Source: a bacterium
GTDB lineage: Bacteria; Lindowbacteria; 2-12-FULL-62-27
DNA: 33,586 nucleotides
Assembly (NCBI GenBank): GCA_016202645.1
Contig: JACQOF010000051.1
Span: forward strand, 1-33,586
Direction: 5' to 3'
Shown: positions 214 to 33,586 of the stretch, in pieces
Layout: the number at the start of each line of letters is the position of its first letter
How positions within the stretch are numbered: the stretch's first letter is position 1
Program-made: the position numbers and the translations under genes
Notes under the pieces: model-generated
The model's database searches: none
What the model was told of the DNA's origin: nothing
The model's input: the letters and a program-made list of their open reading frames with translations, nothing else

Positions 214-3200
214 TCAAGCCATCGTTGCGGGCTCAGACTCGACCGGGTACTCGGGCATGGAACCGGCGTCACCGAACGGGGCCTCATATCCGGCTCCGTC
301 ATAGGTGCAGGCGGCTGTGAAATCTCCCGCGCCATCCGCGGGAATCGTGCACTGGGCTGTGGCCGGGTCATACATGGTGTCCGGCGGACACGTAACCGCA
401 ACGGACCCGTCCGGCTGGACGGCCATACCGTCCGGCATGACCGCGTAGGTCTCGGCCGGCGGAATCTCCACCGTTCCGGAAACCGGATCGATGGTGCTGC
501 CCTCAGGACAACTCCATGTGCAGGTTCCGTCCGGATTGGCTGACACGTCCGGCGGCAGAACCGCGTCGGAGTACTCGTTCGGCACCGTGTAGGTGCCTGC
601 GTTCGCGTCGAAGGTTGTCTCCGGCGGACACTCGTACACGACGTTCCCGTCCGGCGTTGTCGAAACGTCCGGCGGCAGGACCGCGTCGGCTTCCGCCTGC
701 GGCACTGTGATCGCGCCAGCGTCGGCGTCGATCGTGGTTCCGGGCGGAAGATCGATCATCACCGAACCGTCCGGCTGCGGCTCGCATCCGTCCGGCATGA
801 CCATGGTTGCGCCGTCCTGGGGAACGGTGAGTTCCCCGGCGGGAGCGTCATAGGTCGTGCCCGGAGGCATGTCGCAGGTGCAACTGCCGTCCGGATTCAC
901 CGTGACTTCCGGCGGCATCACCATGTCGGCGCTGTCGTTCGGAATCACAAACGCGTCGCCCTCCGGCGTGTACTCCGTTCCCGGCGGCAATTCGCAGGTC
1001 GCGGAACCGTCCGGGTTGAAGGTCATGTCGGTGGTGGCGTAGGTGTCGGCGAAATTGTCGGGCGGCATGGTGCAGGTCCCGGCGGCGGGATCGTAGCTGA
1101 CCCCGTCGGCCGGCGTGCCCACTTCCACCGCGACGACATACTCGCCTTCCGCTCCGGCCGGCGCCGGCTCGAGGCTTCCCGAACCGGTGTTCTCCAGCAC
1201 CATGTCGGTGCCTTCCGGTGGAAGTTCCAGCGTTCCGGAATTGGCCTCGAAGGTGGTTCCCTCCGGGCAATCCATCGAGACGCTTCCATCCGGATTAACC
1301 GCGATTTCAGGCGGCATCACCACGTCGGCGTCGGCGTTCGGCACGGTGAATGTGCCTTCAGCCGGATCCGCCGACCATGCGGCATCGCCCGCGGTCGGAT
1401 AGTCGCACGTACAGGTCCCGGCGGCCGGATCAAACGAAAGGGCCGGATCGCCATCAGGCGGCGGCGCTTCCCCTCCGGGCGGAACATACTCGCAACCGGT
1501 CATTCCCGACCAGGTTTCCGAACCTGGCGGGATGTCGAATGTGCCTGCGTTGGGATCGATATTGGTGCATTCCACCGTGAGAGACCCGTCGGCATTGACG
1601 GTCTCCCCCGCCGGCATGACCGCATCCGCTCCGGCGTTCGGAACGATGCATTCTCCGGCGGCGGTGTCATAGGTGGTTCCTTCCGGCATTGTGGCGGTCA
1701 TCGTGCCGTCCGGATTGGCGACCACTGTGTCCGCGGGCGCGTCCATGTAGCTCGGCGCATCCGCCTCCGGACAGGTGATGGTGCCGGCGTCCGCGTCGAC
1801 CTTCGCATCCGGCGGGATCTCACAGGCCACGCTTCCGTCGGGATTGATCGACATGTCGGGCGGAATGTAGTCCGCCGTCGCGTCGGCCGGAATCGTCGCT
1901 GTCCCGGCATTGGGATCAAAGGTGGTGCCTTCCGGCGCCTCGCATGCAATCGCGCCGTCCGGCTGGAATTCCATGTCCGGCGAAGGCAGAAAAACTTCCG
2001 AAGCCCCGTCGGCCGGCATGGTCATCGTTCCCGCGTTGGGATCGATGGTGGTATCCGGCGGGCAGTCGCAGGTGACGCTGCCATCCGGGTTGACCTCCGC
2101 ATACTCCGGCGTCACCATGTCGGTGCCTTCGGGCGGAAGTTCCAACGTGCCCGAATTGGCGTCGAAGGTGGTCTCCGGCGGGCAGTCCATCGTACACGAT
2201 CCGTCCGGCGCAATGTCCATCTCGGGCGGAACGGTCGGGCAGTCGGCCGGGGGATAATCCAACGTTCCCGCTGCGGGATCGTAGGTCGTCCCCTCGGGAC
2301 ACGCCACCGCGACGTCGCCGTCCGGCTGGACAGTCGCGTCCACGGCGGGCGCGAAGGTATCGACTGCGTCCTGCGGGGGCATCGTGACTTCGCCCGCGGC
2401 AGGATCCAAACTGCCTTCCGGCGGCACCGCAACCGCGACGTCTCCGTCGGGCTGAACGGCGCAGTTGTCCGGGGCGACCATGTCGGCGCCCTCGGGCGGA
2501 AGTTCCAAGGTTGCGGATTCGGCGTCAAACGAAGTTTCCGGCGGGCACTCGCAGGTGACGCTCCCGTCGGGATTCACGCTCGCGTAGTCCGGCTCGGCGA
2601 CGTAGGCCCCGTCGTTCGGAACCGTTGCGGTCCCGGCGTCGGCGTCGTAGGTCGTGCCTTCCGGCATCGCGACCGTCGCGGAACCGTCCGCGTTCACCGT
2701 TGTGTCATTGGGCAGGAATTGATCGGCATCCGCCGCCGGCGCGGTGATCGTGCCGGCGTCGGCGTCGACGGTCGCGGTCGGCGGAACTTCCGTCGTCACG
2801 CTTCCGTCCGCGTTCACGGTCTGATCCTCGGGCAAAACCATGGCGGCGTCGCCCGGGGGAAATGTCACATCACCCGCGTCGGCGTCGTACGTACAGCCGT
2901 CCGGACAATTCGCCACGACTCCGCCGTCCGGTGTGGTCGAGAGATTCTCCGGCATGACCGTGTCGGCCGAATCGGCTGGAACCACCAGGGCCGCCGCGTC
3001 CGCGTCGTACGTGGTGCCTTCCGGACACGACATCGTCGCGGATCCATCCGCGTTGACGGTCGCGTCCATCGGGTAAGCTTCAGCAGGCGGTGGTTCGGTC
3101 GCCGCAACCGTCGCGTCACCATTCTCGGGAATGGTGACTGTGTCGGTCGTCCCGGCGTCCGCGCCGGAATCGTACTGCGACATGTCATAACTGCCGGCAT

Positions 3201-3360
3201 CCGCCGTCGTTGCGTCCGCCTCGGCGTCCATGCTCTCGGCGTCTGCGTCAGCGATCGGAACGCCCAACGCTCCGGGCGCTACAATCTCGTCCAGCTTCTG
3301 GACCTTGACGCCTTTCTTCTTGGCCTTTCCTCCATCTTTCCTTCCGTCGTCCTTTGCCAA
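214..3360 (-). CDS. Acidic, cysteine-containing 40-residue-repeat protein, probably exported
   Basis: Protein of 1048 residues that I do not recognise as a named family. Residues 1-25 are lysine-rich. From about residue 95 to 1010 it consists of about twenty copies of a unit near 40 residues. Each has a turn of the form N-P/A-D-G-S, a short strand often holding one or two Cys, P-P/E-x-T-T-Y/F-D, D/N-A-x-A-G-T, a second strand, and a Pro/Asp-rich linker. After the basic N-terminus I see only one Lys and no Arg, so the chain is strongly acidic. Roughly thirty Cys are scattered through the repeats. Two units, around residues 600-760, are irregular. The start is TTG, chosen because AGGAGGT (minus strand, 3367-3373) sits six bases upstream and no earlier Met exists. 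There is no classical signal peptide. The gene diverges from an adaptor/protease/TolC operon, suggesting it is that system's cargo. The repeat turns recall Ca-binding or beta-solenoid modules, but this is inference. Confidence 0.85.
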   Translation of the reverse strand: MAKDDGRKDGGKAKKKGVKVQKLDEIVAPGALGVPIADADAESMDAEADATTADAGSYDMSQYDSGADAGTTDTVTIPENGDATVAATEPPPAEAYPMDATVNADGSATMSCPEGTTYDADAAALVVPADSADTVMPENLSTTPDGGVVANCPDGCTYDADAGDVTFPPGDAAMVLPEDQTVNADGSVTTEVPPTATVDADAGTITAPAADADQFLPNDTTVNADGSATVAMPEGTTYDADAGTATVPNDGAYVAEPDYASVNPDGSVTCECPPETSFDAESATLELPPEGADMVAPDNCAVQPDGDVAVAVPPEGSLDPAAGEVTMPPQDAVDTFAPAVDATVQPDGDVAVACPEGTTYDPAAGTLDYPPADCPTVPPEMDIAPDGSCTMDCPPETTFDANSGTLELPPEGTDMVTPEYAEVNPDGSVTCDCPPDTTIDPNAGTMTMPADGASEVFLPSPDMEFQPDGAIACEAPEGTTFDPNAGTATIPADATADYIPPDMSINPDGSVACEIPPDAKVDADAGTITCPEADAPSYMDAPADTVVANPDGTMTATMPEGTTYDTAAGECIVPNAGADAVMPAGETVNADGSLTVECTNIDPNAGTFDIPPGSETWSGMTGCEYVPPGGEAPPPDGDPALSFDPAAGTCTCDYPTAGDAAWSADPAEGTFTVPNADADVVMPPEIAVNPDGSVSMDCPEGTTFEANSGTLELPPEGTDMVLENTGSGSLEPAPAGAEGEYVVAVEVGTPADGVSYDPAAGTCTMPPDNFADTYATTDMTFNPDGSATCELPPGTEYTPEGDAFVIPNDSADMVMPPEVTVNPDGSCTCDMPPGTTYDAPAGELTVPQDGATMVMPDGCEPQPDGSVMIDLPPGTTIDADAGAITVPQAEADAVLPPDVSTTPDGNVVYECPPETTFDANAGTYTVPNEYSDAVLPPDVSANPDGTCTWSCPEGSTIDPVSGTVEIPPAETYAVMPDGMAVQPDGSVAVTCPPDTMYDPATAQCTIPADGAGDFTAACTYDGAGYEAPFGDAGSMPEYPVESEPATMA

Positions 3361-3453
3361 ACTGCCACCTCCTCAACGGATTTAAGGACAATCTTTGTCT
3401 TTTTTCTTGTCCCCCCAATCCCCCTGTTAGCCTCTGCTTTTGTATCCTTGGAT

Positions 3454-3640: not shown

Positions 3641-3780
3641 TCTTCCTCCCCCCTTGAGGGGGAGGCAGGGAGGGGGGTTACAACTCCGAAATACAGTGCT
3701 TTTCCTTCGGAAACCCCCCATTCAACTTCCCCCTCAAGGGGGGAAGGGTTGGTTGTGCAATGGCTGTAAATCGAATTTGC
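3641..3780 (-). repeat. Dispersed GC-rich palindromic repeat, copy 1
   Basis: About 140 bp holding two internal palindromes of the type CTCCCCCTTGAGGGGGAG, separated by GGGGGGTT and a non-palindromic middle. Its reverse complement aligns along nearly its whole length with 6938-7076, so the two copies are inverted with respect to each other and bracket the protease/adaptor and regulator genes. It forms most of the non-coding sequence between the divergent promoters. Partial copies lie at 14441-14475 and 15767-15803. An inverted repeat GGTCTGA-N10-TCAGACC (3598-3621) lies just outside it. Confidence 0.85.
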
Positions 3781-3863
3781 CAAAATCCAGTCAATACCAC
3801 GGTCTGAGCCCAACCCACCCACCTCTCCATATTATATAGAGGCCCCCCGCCAAGCCTTTCCCC

Positions 3864-3904: not shown

Positions 3905-6085
3905 ATGCCTGAGGCAACCCCTAAGCGGCTTGGACCCAAACTCAGAGAGGATTTAATCCTCGTTGAAAAGGTTCGCCAAGGGGAGAGGTTGCTGGTCATC
4001 AAGGACCCGATCACGGTCAAGTACTACCAGTTTGGCGCCTTGGAGATCGCCCTCTTCCGGCTCCTCGACGGTTCCACCCCTCCGCCCAAAATCATCGAGC
4101 AAATCAACGCCCAGCACCCGGACGCCGAAATGACGATGGACGAACTCAAGGAATTTCTCGGCGAGATCGATAAGATGAAGCTTCTGGAAAAGGGCGCCGC
4201 GGATCGGAATGCGCTCCTTCTTGAGCGGCTGAAGGAGGAGCGCAAGGGCAAACTCATGAGCAAGAAGGGATCGGTCATGTTCAAGCGTTTCCCCTTGGTC
4301 GACCCGAACGATTTTTTCGACCGCATTCATCCGTACATCAAATGGATCTGGAGCGTACCCTTTGTGGCGTTCATGTGCCTCGTGATCCTGGCGGCCTGCG
4401 TGGCGATCGGGTACAACTGGCAGGAATTCCTGGACGGCATCGCGGCCATTTTCTCCTTCAGCGAGCAGACCGCGTCGAGTCTCCTCTGGCTGTGGCTGAC
4501 GATCATCTGCGTGATCGCTTTTCACGAATTGGGGCACGGCCTGACCTGCAAGCACTACGGCGGGGAGGTCCATGAGATGGGGTTTCTGGTGCTCTTTTTC
4601 CAGCCCTGTTTCTACGCGAACGTGACGGACGCCTACATGTTCGCGAACAAGAAGCACAAGCTCTATGTGACGTTCGCGGGGATCATCGTGGAATTTTTTA
4701 TCGGCAGTCTCTTTTGTTTCGTGTGGCTTCTCACCGACCCCACCTCCGGCCTCAACGCCATCTGCTACCAGGCCATGACGGTGTGCGGCATCTCCTCCGT
4801 GCTCTTTAATCTCAACCCCCTCGTCAAATACGACGGCTACTATGCCTTCTCCGAAATGGTCGATCTTCCGAACCTCAAACAAAATTCCGGGGACGCCCTG
4901 GAGAAGTTTCTGACGAGGATATACAAAAAGAGGGATGACATCGAAGAGGACGACTTCACGCCGCGGGAACGCCGCATTTACATCATCTACTCAATCTGCG
5001 CCACGCTCTTTATCGTGTCTATGCTGGCGGGCATCCTGTACCTCATCAAAGACCCGATCCTTGAGTTCTTCCCGCTCTATCCGGAAGCCGGCGCCGCGGT
5101 TTTCATTTTCATCTGCCTCAAACTCCTGAGCGGCCAGATCTCGGCCACGACGAAATTTTTCAAGGATTTTTATCTGTATGAGGAGGCGGCCTACGGCGGC
5201 GTCAAGACACGCCTGGCGGCTGGCGCGCTCCTCATCGCCGTGATCGCGGCTTGCTTCACCGCGCCCTACGACATCGTCATCGAGAAGGAAATCAAAGTCG
5301 AGTCGCGCGACCGGTGGACCGTGCGGGCGCCGGTGGACGGGTTTCTGGAGGAGGTCTACATCAGGGGCGGCGAGGAAGTGAAGATGGACCAGCCGCTGTT
5401 TTTGATGACGAACCCCGACAAGAGCCGCCGACTCGCGGACCTGGCGGCGGAAGACCGGAAATTCGACATGCAGAGGGACCAGGCCGTCGCGGACGGCGAG
5501 CTGGGAAGTCTTCAGGACATCCAGCTCCGGGAATCTCAGAGCTCCCGGGAACGCGAGGCGATCCGCCGGGAGATGCAGAAGCTCAAGACGGTTTCGCCGG
5601 CCACCGGACTTGTCCTCACGCCTGCGGTAGAGGAACTTGCCGGGAAATATTTCAATGCCGGAGACAAAATCATGGAGATCGCCTGCCTGGCCAACTTGTA
5701 TTCCGTGGTGGAGCTGGAGGAACGCGAAGCCGGGGAAGTGCGGGACCGGCGGCAGATGTCGAGACTGCGCGCGGAAGGGAAACCTGCGGAACGGGCCACC
5801 TCCGCGCGGGTCAAACTCGGGGCGTTGCCGGGCCGGCTTTTTAGCGGGCACATCGAGGCGATTGACGCGGTCGCGGATACCAGCGGCGTGACCCGGAAAT
5901 TTACCGCGAGGATCGCCATCCCCAACCCGGACCTCCGATACGGCGAAAACTGGCTCGCCTCCGGACTGGCCCTCCGGCCCGGCATGACGGGCATGGCCAA
6001 GATCGACGTCCGAAGATCGACGCCCGCGGCGGCCATCGCACGGTGGTTCGCGGGATTCTTCAGACTTGATTTGTTCATGTACTGA
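3905..6085 (+). CDS. PqqD/RRE-like domain - M50 site-2 metalloprotease - HlyD-type adaptor fusion
   Basis: Membrane protein of 726 residues with three parts. Residues about 8-100 resemble the PqqD fold that serves as a peptide-recognition element (RRE) in RiPP pathways. Residues about 140-460 form a polytopic M50 protease with HELGH at 207-211 and the third motif N304-P-L-V-K-Y-D310-G, so zinc ligands and the catalytic Glu are present. Residues about 480-715 form a lipoyl/barrel-sandwich adaptor (ESRDRWTVRAPVDGFLEE and following) like HlyD/MFP proteins, with a short coiled coil. Known RRE domains bind leader peptides, M50 enzymes cleave substrates in or near the membrane, and adaptors link inner membrane to TolC. 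Together these suggest that it recognises, cleaves and hands over an exported polypeptide. The divergent repeat protein is the obvious candidate substrate; this is inference. The regulator gene follows after 2 bp. Confidence 0.86.
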   Translation: MPEATPKRLGPKLREDLILVEKVRQGERLLVIKDPITVKYYQFGALEIALFRLLDGSTPPPKIIEQINAQHPDAEMTMDELKEFLGEIDKMKLLEKGAADRNALLLERLKEERKGKLMSKKGSVMFKRFPLVDPNDFFDRIHPYIKWIWSVPFVAFMCLVILAACVAIGYNWQEFLDGIAAIFSFSEQTASSLLWLWLTIICVIAFHELGHGLTCKHYGGEVHEMGFLVLFFQPCFYANVTDAYMFANKKHKLYVTFAGIIVEFFIGSLFCFVWLLTDPTSGLNAICYQAMTVCGISSVLFNLNPLVKYDGYYAFSEMVDLPNLKQNSGDALEKFLTRIYKKRDDIEEDDFTPRERRIYIIYSICATLFIVSMLAGILYLIKDPILEFFPLYPEAGAAVFIFICLKLLSGQISATTKFFKDFYLYEEAAYGGVKTRLAAGALLIAVIAACFTAPYDIVIEKEIKVESRDRWTVRAPVDGFLEEVYIRGGEEVKMDQPLFLMTNPDKSRRLADLAAEDRKFDMQRDQAVADGELGSLQDIQLRESQSSREREAIRREMQKLKTVSPATGLVLTPAVEELAGKYFNAGDKIMEIACLANLYSVVELEEREAGEVRDRRQMSRLRAEGKPAERATSARVKLGALPGRLFSGHIEAIDAVADTSGVTRKFTARIAIPNPDLRYGENWLASGLALRPGMTGMAKIDVRRSTPAAAIARWFAGFFRLDLFMY

Positions 6086-6087
6086 CC

Positions 6088-6861
6088 ATGCCCCTCCTTC
6101 ACCGCTTCGGACAGAAACGCGGCATGGCGGCCCCGCCGTCGGCGTTTCCCCTGCTCGCCAAACACACCCTCTTCGCCGGTCTGCCGGAAGAAATCCGCCG
6201 CGATCTGGTGGCCAAGGGCAGTCTCGTCCGGATTCCGAAATATTCCCTGATGTTTCACCAGCGGGACGATGTGACGGCGGTTTATTTGATTCTCGAAGGA
6301 CTCGTCAAACTTTACCGGGACCTCGGCGAGACCGACCGGACCTGGGGATTTCGGTACAAGGGGGACATGGTCGGCACCGACTCGCTCCACGCGTCCGGAG
6401 GTCATTTGTACAGCGCCCAGGCGCTTGCGTTTGTCAGCGCCTGCGCGTTTCCGCGCGACATCCTGACGGACCTGACCGCATCCTCGCCGGAATTCTGCGA
6501 GGCGCTCTTTCAGCACGCCGCAAACGAACTTGAAACATCTCTCCGCGAACAGGACGTCCTCACCAGCCGCAGCACCAACGGGCGGATCGCGGACAAAATC
6601 CTGATACTGGCCGAAAAATTCGGCCGGATCAGCGGCTCCGCGGCCCCAAGTGTCGGCGTCTCTGACGCCGGCCGGGCTGAATCCCAGGGCGTCGTGCTTC
6701 AACTTCGCATCACCCAGCGCGAACTAGCCTCCCTCGCCGGGACCAACCGCGAGTCGGTCTGCAAGGCCCTCGTGACGTTCAAACGCGAGGGATCGATCGA
6801 CATTCTTCAAAACAAGTTGATTCTGGTTAAGAATCAAACCAAACTCGCCTCCTGGCCTTGA
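6088..6861 (+). CDS. Crp/Fnr-family transcriptional regulator
   Basis: Protein of 257 residues. Residues about 25-150 form a cyclic-nucleotide-binding-like beta-barrel (PKYSLMFHQRDDVTAVYLI, LEGLVKLYRD). A dimerisation helix follows, and a C-terminal winged helix-turn-helix with ITQRELASLAGTNRESVCKA around 207-226. The N-terminus lacks the cysteine cluster of FNR, so an oxygen-sensing iron-sulfur centre is unlikely, and the ligand is unknown. A loop at about 185-203 between the dimer helix and HTH is longer than usual. It is co-transcribed with the protease (2-bp gap). The inverted repeats at 3522-3560 are plausible operators, making it a likely local regulator. An internal Met at 6124 is an alternative start. 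Confidence 0.9.
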   Translation: MPLLHRFGQKRGMAAPPSAFPLLAKHTLFAGLPEEIRRDLVAKGSLVRIPKYSLMFHQRDDVTAVYLILEGLVKLYRDLGETDRTWGFRYKGDMVGTDSLHASGGHLYSAQALAFVSACAFPRDILTDLTASSPEFCEALFQHAANELETSLREQDVLTSRSTNGRIADKILILAEKFGRISGSAAPSVGVSDAGRAESQGVVLQLRITQRELASLAGTNRESVCKALVTFKREGSIDILQNKLILVKNQTKLASWP

Positions 6862-6937
6862 GTCAGGGGGGAGATGAATTATGATACAAGATTGGACACC
6901 CATGAGATGCCTTTTAGGAGTTATGAACTGGACTGTT

Positions 6938-7076
6938 GTAAATTTGATTTACCGCATTTGCACAACTAACCCTTCCCCCCTCGAGGGGGAAGTTGGATGG
7001 GGGGGTTCCGAAGGAAAAGCACGATATTTTGGAGTTGCAACCCCCCTCCTAACCTCCCCCGCAAGGGGGGAGGAAG
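6938..7076 (+). repeat. Dispersed GC-rich palindromic repeat, copy 2, supplying a ribosome binding site
   Basis: Near-full-length inverted copy of the 3641-3780 element, with the same two palindromic blocks (CCCCCCTCGAGGGGGAAG and CCTCCCCCGCAAGGGGGGAGG). Its right end supplies GGAGG (7069-7073), five bases before the ATG of the TolC-like gene. The element is open in the same frame as that gene, but the translated part looks nothing like a signal peptide, so I treat it as untranslated. Confidence 0.85.
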
Positions 7077-7078
7077 GT

Positions 7079-8605
7079 ATGAGCCGTGTCCGAGCGGCTG
7101 CGGTCTTCGCCCTCCTGCTGGGTCTATCGGGTTTCGCCGGGGCTTATGCGCAGGAAATTCGAATCCTCTCGATCCAGGACGCGCTGAAACTGGCGCTGGA
7201 CCGTAATCCGACGTTCGCCAAGGCGAACCTGTCCCACGAGTCGGCGCGGCTGACGTACTTGAAGACCCTCCACGGGCTCGGGTGGGTCGAGACCTTCTCA
7301 AGCAAAATGGACTTCAAACGGGACGAGACCGGCAGTTATTCCAGATATTCGACCGCGACCGGCGAGGTCTATTCATTCACCCGCGCCAAGACTCTCAGTT
7401 CCAACACGGCCTGGGATTTCAAACGGACCTTTGCGTCCGGCGTGGACGCGGACTTCTACACCAAGCTGAACAGCTCCGGCGTCCGGAACAAATACAAGAA
7501 AATCGGCCAGCCGACTTCCCTCCTGGAACAAACCGCCGGCGGCGACGTCACCCGGTATCAGTACCTCACGGAAAAAATCAATCCGGAAGTCGGGCTGAAC
7601 CTGACCATTCCCTTTTACGGGCCGGACAAGGACAAGGGCCGATTGAGCCGGCAGACCGCCGACATGATCTGGGAACAGTCACGGCTCGATTTCGAAATGG
7701 CCCGGAAAACCCTGGTCTTTTCGGTCCGCCAGGGATATTACGATCTCCTGAAAGCCCGGGAGATGACGCGCCTCCGGAAGGATTCGCTGGCCGAAGGCGA
7801 AGTCCGGCTTGAACTGGCCCGGAAGCGTCTGGGCGTCGGGATGGTCACCGACCTTGACGTTTCCCAGGCCGAACTTGCGGTCCTCCGGAACCGGGCCGAC
7901 CTGGCCGACGCGACGTTTTCGGAACAACAGGCCTTCAGCGGTTTCAACAGCCTCATCGGCCTCCCTCTGGATGACTATTATGACCTGACCGAATCCTTTC
8001 CGGCCGACGACGGCGAGGAGTTGTCGATCAAGGCGATTCAGACCCGGGTCGTGTCGGCCAGCGACGAACTCAAACGCGCCAACAAGGACGTCGACCTGGC
8101 GTCGGTTTCGGTCGAGGAGGCCCGGGGCAAACTCAAGCCGAGTTTCGCTTTTACGTCCACCTTGGCCATGGAGGGCGAACGGCGGAGCGTCCCGAGGGTC
8201 CTGAGAGATCCGGAGGAAAAATATGCGTTTGGATTGGTGTATGACTTTCCGTTCGGCAAGAAAGTCACCGAGCAGGCGGACCTTGAGCTGGCCAAAGCGG
8301 ACCTGAGCACGAAAGTCCTCGTGCGGGATGAACTCAGCCAGGGGCTCCTGCTGGACGCGACCCAGAATTATCAGGAGCTGTTGAAAGTCCGCCGGAGGCT
8401 GGCGATCGCCCGCCAGTCGTCGGAGGTGGCAGCCAGACGCCTCGAGATATCTCAGGCCAAGTACGATGCCGGCCGCGCCGAGATCACCGACGTGATTTCG
8501 GCGAAAGAAGCCCTCGTGAGCGCGCGCGTCGAGGAACTAAACAACCTCTACTCTGTCGCCGTCGCGCTCGCCCAGCTCGAACTGCTGACGGGAGGTTCCC
8601 TGTGA
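7079..8605 (+). CDS. TolC-family outer-membrane efflux protein
   Basis: Protein of 508 residues with a cleavable signal peptide (MSRVRAAAVFALLLGL, then AYAQ before EIRIL). The rest is a typical outer-membrane factor with two structural repeats, IQDALKLALDRNP near the mature N-terminus and the C-terminal helix pair ISQAKYDAGRAEITDVISAK. TolC trimers form the channel across the outer membrane and periplasm. I chose 7079 over an in-frame ATG at 6881 because the signal peptide begins here and GGAGG lies just upstream. It sits between the protease/adaptor-regulator pair and two further adaptors, and its stop overlaps the next start (GTGA at 8602-8605), indicating translational coupling. Confidence 0.9.
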   Translation: MSRVRAAAVFALLLGLSGFAGAYAQEIRILSIQDALKLALDRNPTFAKANLSHESARLTYLKTLHGLGWVETFSSKMDFKRDETGSYSRYSTATGEVYSFTRAKTLSSNTAWDFKRTFASGVDADFYTKLNSSGVRNKYKKIGQPTSLLEQTAGGDVTRYQYLTEKINPEVGLNLTIPFYGPDKDKGRLSRQTADMIWEQSRLDFEMARKTLVFSVRQGYYDLLKAREMTRLRKDSLAEGEVRLELARKRLGVGMVTDLDVSQAELAVLRNRADLADATFSEQQAFSGFNSLIGLPLDDYYDLTESFPADDGEELSIKAIQTRVVSASDELKRANKDVDLASVSVEEARGKLKPSFAFTSTLAMEGERRSVPRVLRDPEEKYAFGLVYDFPFGKKVTEQADLELAKADLSTKVLVRDELSQGLLLDATQNYQELLKVRRRLAIARQSSEVAARRLEISQAKYDAGRAEITDVISAKEALVSARVEELNNLYSVAVALAQLELLTGGSL

Positions 8606-11013
8606 GCGAGCCGGAAGCGGCGCCGGTGGAGGGCCAGGAGGATCTGAAGGCGAAACTCGACCGGCTTACCCTCCTCTACGGCCTCAACCGGGACTTCAAC
8701 GCCACCCTCGACGTCGCGGAACTCATGCCGAAAGTTTTCGAAAAAGTTCTCACGGCGGCCGATGCCGAGGCGGGGTCGTTCTGGCTGTGGGACGAGGAGC
8801 GCAAGGTCATCACCTGCGAAAACGCGTTCGGGCCGGGAAGCGAGAGCGTCAAGGGTCTGGAATTGCCCAAGGGCACCGGGGTGGTGGGCTGGGTGATCAA
8901 CATGAAGAAGCCAACCATCGTCAAGGACGCCACGGCGGACAAGCGGTTCGCGGGGAAGAAGGACGAAAAAAGCGGGTTCGTCACGAAATCGATGATCTGC
9001 GTGCCCCTCGTGGCCTCGACCGGCGTTCTCGGCGCCATCCAAGTGTTGAATAAGAAAGGCGACACCGGACAGTTCAGCGACGAGGACCTGGAACTCTGCC
9101 GCGTCCTGGCCGACAACGCCGCCATGGCTCTTGTCAACGCGCGGTCGTTCGAGAACGAGAAAAAGGCGAAGGAACGCATCCAGGTCTTCAACGAATTCAA
9201 CAAGGCCCAGAGCACGACCCTCGAACTCGACAAATTGCTCGACATTATTTTGAAACGCGTCGTCGCCATCCTCGACGCCATGGCCGGAAGCGTGTGGCTC
9301 CGGGAGGGCCAGGAACTGGCCTGCAAGGTCGCCGCCGGGCCGACGGGCGGAAAATTGAAGGGCGTGAAAGTCGGGGTCGGGACGGGGATTGTCGGAAGCG
9401 TGGTGTCGAAGAAGACGCCGATGATCGTGGAGGACACGTCGAAGTCGGAACTTTTTTCGGGGAAAGTCGACGACGCGACGGGGTTCAAAACCAAGTCCCT
9501 CATCACCGTGCCGCTCATCCACCAGGACGAGGCCATCGGCGCGATCCAGATCATCAATAAAAAACATCAGGATGACCTCTTCACCAAGGAGGACATGGAA
9601 CTTTTGTCCAGCCTCGCGGGGCTTTCCACCAGCGCCATCAAAAACGCGACGCTGTACGAGGTCGAACGCAAAGCCAAGGACCTGTCGACCCTGCTCGAGA
9701 TTTCCAAGGACGTTTCCTCCAACCTCGACATCGACAGCGTCCTCGTCACGGTCGTGAACCTCACCAACCAGGTCGTCCCCTACGACCGGGCGGCGATGTT
9801 TGTGAAGAACGAAAACAAGTTCGACCTCAAGGCGGTCTCGGGCGTGACGAAGATCGACATGAACGATCCGGTCATGAAGGCTCTCGACAACGCCGTCGAT
9901 GGGCTCGACAAGGATCTCTACATCCCCGATGCCGAAGCCTATCTCGCCGAGTCGGGGGGCGCGGCGGCGGTCAAGGAGTATCTCAAGGCCGCCGGCGTGG
10001 CGGCGTTCTACGCGAGGGTCCTTGCGGATGACCAGGGCGCGCTGGCGATGATGACAATGGAGAGCAAGAACAAGAATTTTATTCCGCCCGCGCAGATGGA
10101 GATGATCACGCTCCTGGCCAACCAGATCACCGTTTCGCTCCGGAACGCGGAACTTTATAAATCCGTTCCGCTCTTCTCGTCCCTCGGCCAGAGCGCGGTC
10201 GGGAAACGCCCGCTTGTGGCGGCGGCGATCGGGTTGGCGGTCCTCGCGGGTCTCGGGGCTCTGCTCACCATTCCCAAAATCGAGCACCAGATCGCGGGGG
10301 ATATCGAAATCATCCCGATCGTCAAATATAAAATTTACGCCAAGGAAAGCGGGCTCCTGGAAAAGGTCCAGTTCCAGGAGGGCGATATGATCAAAGCCGG
10401 GGATCTCTTCGCGGAACTGTCCGTGCTGGACATGGAGCAGGAACGCTCGAAACTGACGACCAAGCGCGAACTGGCGCGGCAGGCGTATCTGCGCGCCATC
10501 GGCCTCTCGAACATGGCGGAGGCGAGGATGAAGGAATCCGAGATTGCGCAGGCTGAGCGCGAACTCGCCAATCTGGCCTCGAAGATGAATAACACCAAAG
10601 TCATTTCTCCGTACGAGGGCCAGGTCCTCACGAAGGATCTTTCCCAGAAAGTCGGAGAAAACGTGAGCCGGGGGTCGATCGTCGGAGAAGTCGTCGACCT
10701 CGGAGAGCTTCAGGTCAAATTCCTCGTGCCGCAGGAACAGATCCGGTACATCCAGGCCGGCCAGCCCGTCCACTTCAAAGTCTCGGCCTATCCGGCACGG
10801 GCCTTTGACGTCAAGATCGACCGGATCGGCCTCGACGCGGAACCCGTGGAAAGTCAGATTTTCTACAACGCCTACGCCACCATCTCGAATGCCGACCGGG
10901 CCCTGCGGGCCGGCATGTCCGGCCGTGGCCGGATCCACGCGGGCAAGTGGCGCCCCCTCGACCGGCTTCTCGAACAGCCGACGCACTGGTTTCGGATGAC
11001 GTGGGTATGGTAG
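8602..11013 (+). CDS. Triple-GAF sensor fused to HlyD-type membrane adaptor
   Basis: Protein of 803 residues. Three GAF domains occupy about 30-180, 205-355 and 370-525. The first two are clear, with the typical endings VPLVASTGVLGAIQVLNKK and VPLIHQDEAIGAIQIINKK; the third is more divergent. A single transmembrane helix follows at about 536-556 (LVAAAIGLAVLAGLGALLTI), then a HlyD-like periplasmic part at about 570-790 with barrel-sandwich halves around a coiled coil. GAF domains usually sense small molecules in the cytoplasm, so the protein could couple an intracellular signal to the assembly or opening of the export channel. It starts with GTG preceded by GGAGG (8591-8595). The ligand is unknown, and I see no output domain such as a cyclase or kinase. 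Confidence 0.88.
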   Translation: MSEPEAAPVEGQEDLKAKLDRLTLLYGLNRDFNATLDVAELMPKVFEKVLTAADAEAGSFWLWDEERKVITCENAFGPGSESVKGLELPKGTGVVGWVINMKKPTIVKDATADKRFAGKKDEKSGFVTKSMICVPLVASTGVLGAIQVLNKKGDTGQFSDEDLELCRVLADNAAMALVNARSFENEKKAKERIQVFNEFNKAQSTTLELDKLLDIILKRVVAILDAMAGSVWLREGQELACKVAAGPTGGKLKGVKVGVGTGIVGSVVSKKTPMIVEDTSKSELFSGKVDDATGFKTKSLITVPLIHQDEAIGAIQIINKKHQDDLFTKEDMELLSSLAGLSTSAIKNATLYEVERKAKDLSTLLEISKDVSSNLDIDSVLVTVVNLTNQVVPYDRAAMFVKNENKFDLKAVSGVTKIDMNDPVMKALDNAVDGLDKDLYIPDAEAYLAESGGAAAVKEYLKAAGVAAFYARVLADDQGALAMMTMESKNKNFIPPAQMEMITLLANQITVSLRNAELYKSVPLFSSLGQSAVGKRPLVAAAIGLAVLAGLGALLTIPKIEHQIAGDIEIIPIVKYKIYAKESGLLEKVQFQEGDMIKAGDLFAELSVLDMEQERSKLTTKRELARQAYLRAIGLSNMAEARMKESEIAQAERELANLASKMNNTKVISPYEGQVLTKDLSQKVGENVSRGSIVGEVVDLGELQVKFLVPQEQIRYIQAGQPVHFKVSAYPARAFDVKIDRIGLDAEPVESQIFYNAYATISNADRALRAGMSGRGRIHAGKWRPLDRLLEQPTHWFRMTWVW

Positions 11014-12038
11014 AGATGACGCCTATGCAAGGGAGAAAGGGAGAAAGGGAGAAAGGGAGAAAGTTAAACAGAGGAACCCGGGGAAATCTTTGTCCTTTCT
11101 CCCTCTCTCCCTCTATCCCTCTCTCCCTTCTTTTCTGTTTATCCTTTCTCCCTTTCTCCCTTTCTCCCTCTATCCCTGCCCACGCGGACGTCTATCCAAA
11201 CGGCCTCGTGGTGCCCTATCTCGATGTATCCGTCTCCCCCCGCGCGTCGGGGACGGTCACGGAGATTTTCGTGAAGGAGGGAGACTGGATACAGGTGGGC
11301 GATACGCTCGCGGTGATGGACGATGCCAAGGAACAGCTGGACATGGAACTGTCGGAACATGAAATCGACGAACTGCGCGTGTCCCTGGACAAATTGAAAA
11401 AAGGCCGCCAACCCAAGGAACTGGAAAAGATGCAAGTTGACCTGAAGAAGGCAAAACTTTCGGAAGAGAAGGCGAAGGCCGAATTGGACCGGGTGGAGCG
11501 GCTGTTTGAGCAGAAGGCGGTGTCGGAAAAAGAGGTGGCCGACGCGAAAAATGCCCACCAGACCGCCGCGCTCTCCGTCGAGTCTCTCCGGCTTGGACTG
11601 GAAATCGCCGCGTCCGAACCCCGGAAAGAGGACGTGATCCTGCAGGAAATGAAAATCGCGCAGAAAATGACGGGCCGGGATCAGAAAACCCTCGCGCTCG
11701 AAAAACTGACCCTCATCTCGCCCGCCGCCGGCGCGATCACCAAACTTTACTACGCCCCCGGCGAATACGCGGGCGCCGGGTCGCCCTTCTGCGACGTGAT
11801 TTACACCGACAGCCTCTACGTAGAACTCAACCTGCCGCTGTCAGAAATCCGCCGGATCGAGAGGGGCATGCGCGCGGAAGTCACCGTCCCGGCCATCACG
11901 CCGAAAACCTACGCCGGCAAGGTGGTCTTCATCGGCCCCACGGTCGACCCGGCCAGCCGGACCTTCAAGATCCGGATTCTGATCGATAATCCCAAACACG
12001 TTCTCAGACCGGGACTATTCGCCACGGTTAAACTGTAA
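11007..12038 (+). CDS. HlyD/MFP-family periplasmic adaptor with repeat-derived N-terminus
   Basis: Adaptor of up to 343 residues. The mature part (from DVYPNGLVVPYLDVSV) has a lipoyl-like barrel (ASGTVTEIFVKEGDWIQVGD), a long coiled-coil hairpin, the second barrel half (LTLISPAAGAITKLYYAPGE) and the beta-barrel ending in LRPGLFATVKL. It resembles RND-type membrane fusion proteins more than the other two adaptors do. The N-terminus is unusual: candidate starts at 11007, 11016 and 11025 all precede four perfect GGGAGAAA octamers, then come pyrimidine-rich octamers that encode a hydrophobic Ser/Pro/Leu/Phe stretch ending in PAHA, a plausible signal peptide. The start overlaps the previous stop by 7 bp. 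The true start is uncertain. Because the octamer length is not a multiple of three, copy-number change would shift the frame. Confidence 0.83.
   Translation: MVEMTPMQGRKGEREKGRKLNRGTRGNLCPFSLSPSIPLSLLFCLSFLPFSLSPSIPAHADVYPNGLVVPYLDVSVSPRASGTVTEIFVKEGDWIQVGDTLAVMDDAKEQLDMELSEHEIDELRVSLDKLKKGRQPKELEKMQVDLKKAKLSEEKAKAELDRVERLFEQKAVSEKEVADAKNAHQTAALSVESLRLGLEIAASEPRKEDVILQEMKIAQKMTGRDQKTLALEKLTLISPAAGAITKLYYAPGEYAGAGSPFCDVIYTDSLYVELNLPLSEIRRIERGMRAEVTVPAITPKTYAGKVVFIGPTVDPASRTFKIRILIDNPKHVLRPGLFATVKL
11031..11062. repeat. Perfect tandem octamer array, GGGAGAAA x 4
   Basis: Four identical 8-bp units directly after the candidate start codons of the HlyD-type adaptor gene. They encode a basic stretch (GRKGEREKGRK). 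The reverse complement of the same octamer recurs at 11096-11168, so the transcript could fold back on itself. Confidence 0.95.
11096..11168. repeat. Octamer arrays of TTTCTCCC and variants
   Basis: Positions 11096-11127 hold TTTCTCCC followed by three variants (TCTCTCCC, TCTATCCC, TCTCTCCC). Positions 11145-11168 hold three perfect TTTCTCCC units and one degenerate unit follows. They are complementary to the GGGAGAAA array. In the reading frame of the adaptor they encode the hydrophobic core of its putative signal peptide. Confidence 0.93.
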
Positions 12039-31331: not shown

Positions 31332-31393
31332 CCAGCTTCTATGCGTCGGGTCGGCGGGTGACTCGAACGAATGAAAAAAATGAGGGGGGTTCC

Positions 31394-32071
31394 ATGAATC
31401 GAAATGTTTCGATTGTCAGTGTGCTGGGTTTTCTGATGCTGACAGCTTGCGGAAAATCCGAGCCGTCGGCCGCGCCGGCGCCGGCGGTGTCCGATGCGCC
31501 GTCCGCGCAGGATCAGGCGGGTCCGGCGGTGGACATGGCCGATGAGGACGCGCCGGCCGGAAATGTCGATATGCCGAAAACGGCGTCGGGTCTGGCCATT
31601 ACGGAAATCCGCAAGGGCGAAGGCGGGAAATACTCCGCCACCTTAAATGGCGCTATTGTCTTCAGGGAATTGACGTTACAGAACGACCGCCTTTTCTTTC
31701 CGAAGGTCCCTGGGCGAGGGGATCAGAGTTTTCATATTGTGTATTTGAAGGACCGGACGATCGCGGATCAAATCAAGGCGGCGATTCAGGCGGGGAAAGC
31801 CACGGCCAAGGGAGCGCCGGGGGAGCTTAAGGTGACGGAGGTCAAGTGGCGGGAGTTTGGGCGGGAGGGGAATTTGAAGGGATTTGCGAATGTGATGTTT
31901 AATGACGCAATTGAGATCAAGGACTGCAAGTTATTGGACGGGAAGAATGGGTTATGGGTGGCGTGGCCGAGCGTGAAGAAGGATGGGGAGTTTTACGATT
32001 TGATTTTTGCGTTGGATGAGGGGGTTCGGAAGCAGGTGACGGAGGCGGTCATTAAGGAGGCGGGTCTTTAG
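31394..32071 (+). CDS. Lipoprotein with two SpoVG-like domains
   Basis: Protein of 225 residues. The signal peptide MNRNVSIVSVLGFLMLTAC ends in a lipobox (L16-T-A-C19), then GKSE, indicating export and lipid attachment. Residues about 22-70 are a Pro/Ala/Asp-rich linker. Two similar domains follow. The clearer, about 145-225, has LKGFANVMFNDAIEIKDCKL, DGKNGLWVAWPSVKKDGEFY and VRKQVTEAVIKEAG, close to SpoVG, which normally reads I/L-D-G-x-N-G-L-F-V-A-M-P-S. The other, about 75-140, shows the same order of elements in weaker form (ATLNGAIVFRELTLQNDRLF, FPKV, FHIVYLKDRTIADQIKAAI). SpoVG itself is a small cytoplasmic nucleic-acid-binding regulator, so an exported tandem form is surprising. GAGGGGGG precedes the ATG. 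The job of this protein is unknown. Confidence 0.82.
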   Translation: MNRNVSIVSVLGFLMLTACGKSEPSAAPAPAVSDAPSAQDQAGPAVDMADEDAPAGNVDMPKTASGLAITEIRKGEGGKYSATLNGAIVFRELTLQNDRLFFPKVPGRGDQSFHIVYLKDRTIADQIKAAIQAGKATAKGAPGELKVTEVKWREFGREGNLKGFANVMFNDAIEIKDCKLLDGKNGLWVAWPSVKKDGEFYDLIFALDEGVRKQVTEAVIKEAGL

Positions 32072-32541: not shown

Positions 32542-33586
32542 ATGATAACAGGAACGGGGCACGATAGCGGGGAAGAAAAGCGTTGCGGGGTCGGTGGGGT
32601 GGTGGGGCGTCGCAGCTCATATGGCTCGCGGGTTATTGGCGGAATCATTCACAACTTGGCCGCGCGATTTTGGAAGGCCCTTCTTCCGGCGATGGGTCTT
32701 TGTCTATTTCTGGCCGGAGCGACGCCGGCCGAGGCGGCGCCGTGGTGGTGGGCGTTCTTTTCAATTGGCGAGGGATCGGGGTTCAGTTCGTCGTCTTCGG
32801 TTGAGCGGTATATCGGCCAATACATCCGTTCCGCGCAAAATCCGGATACCGTCTACATCGCGTCTTTTACTTGGGGGACGGGAACCAACGAGCCGATCAA
32901 CGGCAGTGGCTGGGGCATTAATGCGCTGCACACTCTCCGGCAGGGGGTTTCGGGCGCCGCGCCGGTTCGGGTGATCGCGGACGGGGACGATTTGGCCGAC
33001 ATCAACGCCACCAAAAGCGCCGCCGTGCCGATGGTTGCGTCGCCATCCAATACCGGCTCGGCGACTCACAACAAGGTCATCACCCTGGGCACGCGTTCCG
33101 TCATGACGGGGTCGATGAATTTCACGGCCGGGGGCTATTCGAATCAGCCGAACAACATGGTGATGCTTCGCGTGCCGTCGGTTGCGCAGGCCTACCTGAA
33201 CGAGCTGGATGATCAGTTTTTGAACAACAACTTCATCGAGAACACCAAATCGCCCCAGAACCTGTTCACCTCGCCCACCGGGAACCGGATCGAAGTTTTT
33301 TTCGGGCCGGACGACAACGGCAACATCACGCTTTCTCCCTACTCGTCGGGTTCGGCGATGAAGGACGTCCTGCTCTATCACATTTCCAACAGCAACGAGT
33401 CCATTTTCTACATGGTCAACCGGTTTTTCATGAGCACGGAGCTTCGGGACGCCATGACGGCCGCCACGCCCGGCAAGCAGGTTGAGGGGTGGTTTGATTC
33501 ATTCGACGCAAACGCGAACATCAAAAATATTCTGCAGGCCGACCACACCGCGCGGGACTGGAACGACCTGAGCGCCACGGAGGGCC
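32542..33586 (+). CDS. Secreted phospholipase-D-like protein, 3' end beyond window
   Basis: Open frame of at least 348 residues with no stop before the right edge. A signal peptide is seen at about residues 38-63 (RFWKALLPAMGLCLFLAG followed by ATPAEA), giving an unusually long N-region if ATG 32542 is used. GTG at 32599 or 32602 or TTG at 32656 would give a more normal one. The mature part has VERYIGQYIRSAQNPDTVYI and the PLD-type motif THNKVITLGTRSVMTGSMNF, i.e. H-x-K ... G-S-x-N. The Asp normally five residues after the Lys is Gly here. The second HKD motif would lie later, around or beyond the window edge. Relatives are phosphodiesterases or nucleases; an extracellular enzyme or an inactive binding domain are both possible. 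Confidence 0.78.
   Translation, partial: MITGTGHDSGEEKRCGVGGVVGRRSSYGSRVIGGIIHNLAARFWKALLPAMGLCLFLAGATPAEAAPWWWAFFSIGEGSGFSSSSSVERYIGQYIRSAQNPDTVYIASFTWGTGTNEPINGSGWGINALHTLRQGVSGAAPVRVIADGDDLADINATKSAAVPMVASPSNTGSATHNKVITLGTRSVMTGSMNFTAGGYSNQPNNMVMLRVPSVAQAYLNELDDQFLNNNFIENTKSPQNLFTSPTGNRIEVFFGPDDNGNITLSPYSSGSAMKDVLLYHISNSNESIFYMVNRFFMSTELRDAMTAATPGKQVEGWFDSFDANANIKNILQADHTARDWNDLSATEG

Follow-up and report, generated by a model that had tools for sequence, protein, structure and literature searches.

How does a bacterium handle a protein of more than 1,000 residues that is nearly devoid of basic side chains, and where would such a protein act? This question is raised by an open reading frame (ORF) at positions 214-3360 of contig JACQOF010000051.1 (GenBank assembly GCA_016202645.1; Lindowbacteria, 2-12-FULL-62-27). 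The whole stretch of DNA analysed, 33,586 nt (positions 1 to 33,586 of the contig), is called the window. An initial annotation had described the product as an acidic repeat protein with periodic cysteines, and suggested an extracellular protein that folds on binding cations, or a metal-loaded or disulfide-linked fibre or coat. In our view the repeat protein is probably a cargo dedicated to, and exported by, a type-I-like cassette, which is guided by a recognition element (RRE) of the kind known from ribosomally synthesized and post-translationally modified peptides (RiPPs) and selects a RiPP-style N-terminal leader. The features of the cargo gene are as follows.

214-3360, minus strand: repeat protein (proposed cargo), 1,048 amino acids (aa), TTG start
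3368-3373, minus strand: Shine-Dalgarno sequence AGGAGG, with its context kept in the ortholog
3274-3360, minus strand: proposed leader, residues 1-29, a basic stretch plus KLDEIVAP, presumably ending at Pro29
3274-3297, minus strand: KLDEIVAP core, residues 22-29, proposed RRE-binding motif; compare daptide ELExMEAP and planctomycete LEERIAP
322-3072, minus strand: about 22 units of about 40 aa, residues 97-1013, from a hidden Markov model (HMM) of the unit

The ORF was confirmed as first read, with 1,048 codons on the minus strand and a Shine-Dalgarno sequence 7 nt upstream of the TTG start. An ortholog with 58% identity across the whole frame was found in another genome of the same family (G001; contig MFPR01000001, Ca. 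Lindowbacteria RIFCSPLOWO2_12_FULL_62_27), with an identical GAGGAGGTGG and TTG start context. Lys and Arg (K/R) occur in the window protein only at positions 3, 7, 8, 12, 14, 15, 16, 19, 22 and 520. Nine of these ten lie within residues 1-22, so the near-absence of basic residues reported initially holds: after the leader there is K520 and no Arg. The protein has no His, a predicted pI of 4.05, a net charge of about -188 and the C-terminus ATMA. The K/R content past residue 29 is 0.1%. For comparison, 575 ORFs of 300 aa or longer, drawn from the same loci and related ones, have a median of 11.7% past residue 60; among these ORFs the two lowest contents past residue 60 are those of the repeat protein and its ortholog. 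In the ortholog K/R are confined to residues 4-18 and none follows in about 1,100 residues.

The leader thus carries nearly all of the positive charge, and it is also the conserved part of the N-terminus. The sequence KKKGVKVQKLDEIVAPG is near-invariant in the ortholog; between the two genera the near-invariant stretch is KKKGV.V.KLDEIVAPGALG, and the residues beyond it diverge. By inspection the leader lacks a hydrophobic core, indicating that it is not a Sec or Tat signal. It resembles the planctomycete signal PF07595 (LEPR-XLL; RRLxxExLExRxLLA), which also has a basic N-terminus followed by a short L-E/D motif and is found on large proteins. It differs in having Ile for Arg and VAP for LLA, and in a host that is not a planctomycete. 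LEPR-XLL was proposed as a novel export signal by Studholme et al. (2004), as cited in PMC8567305. According to PMC8567305, Tuwongella immobilis has 52 LEPR-type genes, and 8 of its 10 longest proteins carry the motif.

Twelve planctomycete leaders of the VEELEERIAPA type, and none from Lindowbacteria, were used to train a leader profile. The two Lindowbacteria leaders ranked 2 and 6 (the window protein) of 915 proteins. The top nine ranks were all leader proteins from loci with the same cassette, the first of them being in the training set. Shuffling the window N-terminus 20,000 times never gave as high a score. The basic region and the LExLExR-type motif of LEPR-XLL signals were therefore recognised in the window leader by a profile made without it. 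NCBIfam searches at E up to 10 returned no signal-type model even for clear LEPR-XLL proteins, and are uninformative on this signal. KLDEIVAP also aligns without gaps to ELExMEAP, the motif of daptide leaders, in which an Ala substitution of Leu(-7) or Met(-4) stopped processing by an RRE-dependent enzyme (PMC10036551). In the same study the RRE-fused intramembrane peptidase MpaP is said to remove the daptide leader. The window leader is probably cleaved near AP|G, and it is probably an export tag that is read and cut by the adjacent protease-exporter, which is encoded with the following genes.

3905-6085, plus strand: RRE - M50 site-2 protease - HlyD fusion, 726 aa, proposed leader receptor, leader peptidase and adaptor
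3905-4204, plus strand: RRE (PqqD-like) domain, about residues 1-100, from family, AlphaFold2 (AF2) and fold match
4523-4537, plus strand: HExxH zinc-protease motif, His207-His211
6088-6861, plus strand: Crp/Fnr-type regulator
6881-8605, plus strand: TolC-type outer-membrane channel (PF02321, E=2.7e-36), true start uncertain
8602-11013, plus strand: GAF-HlyD protein (GAF E=1.6e-38, HlyD_D23 E=4.2e-17)
10947-12038, plus strand: HlyD-type adaptor (HlyD_D23 E=1.6e-27), overlapping the previous gene, true start uncertain

The RRE was assigned on three grounds. PF05402 (PqqD) was matched in 29 of 40 homologs, but not by the window sequence alone. The AF2 model shows three strands followed by helices (predicted local distance difference test score, pLDDT, 81). 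The best PDB matches of this model in Foldseek were the TbiB1 RREs solved with leader peptides (probability 1.0, TMt 0.78, E 2.3e-3). The M50 core is intact, with HExxH and NPL.K.DGYY; H207, E208, H211, N304-P305-L306 and D310-G311 are invariant in 4 of 4 aligned homologs. The closest curated family of the 726-aa protein is the daptide leader protease (E=1.1e-53; score 182.7 against a cut-off of 300), and the YydH/LiaK RiPP proteases are also among the closest. The cassette arrangement is kept in G001, where the fusion protein has 71% identity to that of the window, compared with 58% for the cargo.

These RiPP families, together with the RRE and leader that are hallmarks of RiPPs, could be taken to mean that the repeat protein is a very large RiPP precursor. 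In that case enzymes recruited by the RRE would modify the repeats, e.g. at Cys, and a modified polymer would be released by the M50 protease. However, the ORF lists and family matches revealed no recognisable modification enzyme next to the cassette, either in the window or in G001 (the window flank left of the cargo ends at the contig edge), and the cassette is made of export components. We find this explanation very improbable.

We infer instead the following route for an exported cargo. The RRE of the 726-aa protein would bind the KLDEIVAP leader in the cytoplasm, and the fused intramembrane M50 protease would cut the basic leader off, near AP|G. The K/R-free body would travel through the HlyD/GAF-HlyD/TolC conduit and, once outside, fold into a long beta-rich fibre or a surface coat; fibre, sheath and adhesin are candidate final roles. 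That Lys, Arg and His are almost completely lacking would be an adaptation to this route. In other systems cationic regions block ABC-type secretion (PMC9223453), and the absence of K/R fits export for this reason. The interpretation given in the initial annotation was supported in part, namely in placing the protein outside the cell; it had missed the leader and the adjacent leader protease, which carry most of the meaning of the locus.

The same cassette was found in other phyla. Genome contigs were scanned with a four-sequence alignment, and the best 80 of 236 relatives were kept. These were mainly from Planctomycetota, Verrucomicrobiota, Acidobacteriota and Gemmatimonadota, and in most loci the protease was accompanied by GAF-HlyD or HlyD genes. 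In Planctomycetota and Verrucomicrobiota large K/R-poor or LEPR-XLL proteins were often adjacent to these sister cassettes. Large proteins with 1.5-2.9% K/R were found at L058, L065, L074, L084, L095, L096, L112 and L115, and one K/R-poor protein linked to a cassette has cadherin-like and RTX repeats. Among 846 genes around the cassettes, LExRxLL near the N-terminus was observed 16 times, where 0.3 was expected by shuffling. In eight Opitutaceae-type loci (L083, L084, L086, L094, L096, L098, L104, L111) a 430-500-aa protein with a LEPR-type N-terminus is encoded directly beside HlyD or GAF-HlyD.

Co-occurrence of leader and protease was followed in the order of L095 (Sedimentisphaerales). A close relative of the L095 RRE-M50-HlyD protein (E below 1e-180) was present in 13 of 118 genomes. 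Seven genomes had a leader match, one of which (G151) was weak, an 83-aa frame with a stop in frame, and was set aside. The six sound ones were all among the 13 protease genomes (Fisher p=5e-7, or 3e-6 with the seventh counted against), although the genomes within one order are related, so that these values overstate independence. Leader and matching protease share a contig in G098, G099 and G100, and are on separate contigs in G123, G131 and G145. In each of the former three a single leader match was found in the genome, at the N-terminus of a giant protein encoded on the cassette contig. The giant leader proteins of this order have 0-1.4% K/R past residue 60 in the stretches examined, a pattern like that of the window protein. 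Most planctomycete genomes with a matching protease also hold a second SecA_DEAD frame of about 650 aa. The extracellular location is accordingly supported by the leader-like N-terminus, by the linked leader-protease/exporter cassette, and by a K/R depletion that is shared with other cassette-linked proteins.

Two further observations were made in these loci. A same-strand gene of about 370 aa follows RRE-M50-HlyD in most Opitutaceae-type loci, at the positions below. The genome of L056 (G105) has seven weak leader matches, including LEDRIAPA, LERRVAPV, LEHRIAPA, LEPRIAPV, LESRVAPA and LEQRVAPA; this suggests that some lineages have many cargo proteins per genome, and the set bridges the LEPR-XLL and LEERIAP forms.

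L084, 12161-13297: gene of about 370 aa
L086, 12263-13354: gene of about 370 aa
L094, 12166-13278: gene of about 370 aa
L096, 12161-13300: gene of about 370 aa
L098, 12154-13290: gene of about 370 aa
L111, 12372-13463: gene of about 370 aa

Besides the relatedness of the genomes, several points weigh against export by the cassette, and some of them would suit an accidental linkage, in which an acidic structural protein unrelated to the cassette uses its basic N-terminus for, e.g., nucleic-acid or membrane binding. The cargo gene is divergent from the cassette and outside its operon, and the cargo-cassette pair was found in two genomes only. No ATP-using component was recognised in the cassette, which has no obvious motor; nor does it hold an ABC protein, so the analogy to ABC-type secretion is imperfect. 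The window genome (G000) has a single SecA, of canonical length, and one SecA_DEAD frame was found in each of G000 and G001 (open frames of 1067 and 1037 aa), whose completeness of 82% and 94% means that a second SecA could be missed. Both Lindowbacteria proteins read LDEI, with Ile in place of the canonical Arg of LExR, and the Pfam LEPR-XLL model gives no match to the window leader, a weak test in that this 20-position model also puts clear members under the cut-off. Leader-bearing giant proteins are common in planctomycetes, and some chance adjacency within 10 kb is expected. On the other hand, the pair is kept across two genera at the protein identities given above, the leader resembles cassette-linked leaders of other phyla, and a third member of the family (G002) matches neither partner, with no match to the repeat protein, the leader or RRE-M50-HlyD. 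Accidental linkage is in our judgement improbable.

The body of the cargo was described in the initial annotation as about twenty 40-residue acidic repeats of a unit without a named family, and this reading of the sequence was accurate. Of the units found with the HMM, 19 scored above 22 bits, most of these above 46, and a few were degenerate. The summed score was 954.5 bits, whereas the maximum over 500 shuffles of the same composition was 10.0. The consensus is approximately PPDxxVNPDGSVTxxCPPGTTYDADAGTLTVPxDGADMVM, with D9, G10, P17 and P32 invariant across 13 exact 40-mers. It can be divided into two half-units, in each of which a turn (PDGS or DAGT) precedes a short strand and a Pro. Cys occurs chiefly at unit positions 12, 14 and 16, that is, at alternate residues of one strand. 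The periodicity noted earlier holds for the position of Cys, not for its presence, as some units have Cys and others lack it. Poly-Pro insertions are present in the ortholog.

A profile search for the unit had been proposed at the outset. NCBIfam gave no match. The only Pfam match was CBM_14 (peritrophin-A, PF01607; whole-protein E=8.5e-8), over 23 of 53 positions of one terminal unit; the ortholog scored 19.1 bits, under the cut-off of 22.1. The likeness consists of a 23-residue CPxGTxYDxxxGxCxxP hairpin in the last unit. The second Cys is missing from most units, and the full Cys pattern of CBM_14 was not found. Among 386 genomes the unit profile matched in G000 and G001 only, no relative was found when the full cargo sequence was compared with the genome contigs, and a scan of a viral contig collection gave no further copy. 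One match in G074 (E=5.7e-6) was rejected as a relative, being a different, K/R-containing DYTGRVHVVPAGA... repeat that we judged a likeness of turns. That unrelated protein (L005:1375-2967) has about twenty DYTGRVHVVPAGA-type repeats of about 14 residues each.

Structure prediction, likewise proposed at the outset, indicated that the units are not completely disordered, without yielding a confident fold. In the AF2 model of six units, made from a six-row alignment, each unit has four short strands and a short helix, with pLDDT 61.6 overall and about 75 in the better stretches; the five models ranged from pLDDT 39 to 62. Fold searches with this low-confidence model gave no significant match. 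The low-probability Foldseek rows include fibre shafts (adenovirus fibre, reovirus sigma1, injection-system tail fibres), which were not reproduced with VIA-align. A trimeric beta-spiral is only an idea, the model being that of a monomer. In a PDB sequence search the repeat profile matched hydrazine synthase beta (4e-4) and the CPAP G-box domain (0.003-0.005), and the single full protein gave nothing significant. In view of the biased composition, the CPAP likeness, a PDG-turn beta-meander, is a lead only.

The composition could instead be set by the role of the protein outside the cell. In a metal-loaded or disulfide-linked fibre, Ca2+ would be held in the NPDGS and DADAGT turns, or Cys would be cross-linked, whatever the export route. 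The conserved turns and the Cys at alternate strand positions are consistent with this, as are the 22 of 32 window Cys (69%) that are also Cys in the ortholog. However, the Cys number varies (32 in the window protein and 45 in the ortholog), no calcium-repeat family was matched, and acidic positions are poorly conserved: between the orthologs 93% of P and 80% of G are kept, but 46% of D and 24% of E. The stronger conservation of P, G and Cys suggests that bulk charge matters more than particular acidic sites, a reading limited by D9 of the PDG turn, which is invariant inside the window protein. On this comparison, a structural scaffold that carries its negative charge in bulk is more likely than a protein with many fixed metal sites. 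Such a fibre would also leave unexplained the lack of Lys, Arg and His in the non-repeat parts, as well as the K/R-poverty of the unrelated giant proteins linked to cassettes. We regard an outside role as an unlikely sole cause of the composition; cation binding or disulfides in the exported product would be compatible with export by the cassette.

Some features of the window lie apart from these questions. A 155-nt element is present in two inverted copies (3642-3796 and 6922-7076) that are 86% complementary and have inverted-repeat ends. The first copy separates the cargo gene from the divergent protease gene. In the TolC ORF the second copy makes up the opening residues (NPSPLEGEVGWGG...), and the true TolC start is therefore probably downstream. 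Where the HlyD ORF starts, at 11030-11177, short tandem GAAAGGGA / CTTTCTCCC repeats that have inverted arms are read as a low-complexity N-terminus, and the true start may be downstream of them. The 237-aa protein encoded at 31358-32071 (plus strand) starts like a lipoprotein and carries SpoVG (PF04026, E=1.5e-16) as its C-terminal domain, whereas SpoVG proteins are usually small and cytoplasmic. At 32542-33585 (plus strand) a gene for a protein with a PLD-like domain (PF13091, E=1.2e-7) is cut off at the contig edge.

The export reading may extend beyond Lindowbacteria. In this wider form, to which we give even chances, RRE-M50-HlyD cassettes would be the processing and export machine of LEPR-XLL / LEERIAP giant surface proteins in Planctomycetota, Verrucomicrobiota and related phyla. 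A RiPP-style RRE would have been co-opted as the cargo receptor, and Lindowbacteria would be a minimal case with a single cargo and no secondary SecA. If so, the orphan LEPR-XLL signal would gain a machine and the orphan GAF-HlyD/M50-HlyD cassette a cargo. RRE recognition, familiar from short natural products, would reach proteins of 100 kDa or larger, and there would be a reason for giant proteins without basic residues. The main interest of the locus is outside the repeats: it offers the surface-protein leaders of an orphan family a candidate receptor, peptidase and exporter.

Three known systems are close to this one. RTX and other type-I-secreted acidic repeat proteins are likewise acidic, K/R-poor and repetitive, with TolC and HlyD neighbours. 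The window signal is N-terminal whereas theirs is C-terminal, no ABC exporter was recognised in the cassette, and the RTX nonapeptide PF00353 gave no match at E up to 1. The daptide system shares the RRE fused to an intramembrane site-2 protease (MpaP) and a leader with L-D/E-x-hydrophobic-x-A-P. It differs in that HlyD is added here and that the cargo is about 100 kDa, not a short peptide with a C-terminal Thr; no daptide decarboxylase, aminotransferase or methyltransferase genes were recognised in the flank. The third is the locus of Kamneva et al. (2015; PMC4452313), who likened it to type I secretion, saw a possible motor in a secondary SecA_DEAD and a possible pore in M50, and called its broader role completely unknown. 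GAF-HlyD, M50-HlyD and HlyD, sometimes with OEP/TolC, occur together there, as they do in the window and in G001. The parts of that paper examined report weak M50 similarity and name no RRE or substrate. In the two Lindowbacteria genomes no secondary SecA was found, and a leader-bearing cargo is identified here. In the literature searched, which mostly excluded subscription papers, no exporter was named for LEPR-XLL and no paper joined this signal to the GAF-HlyD/M50-HlyD cassette. The cassette, the leader type and the RRE-protease fusion had each been described before; the link among the three and the unnamed cargo unit appear to be new.

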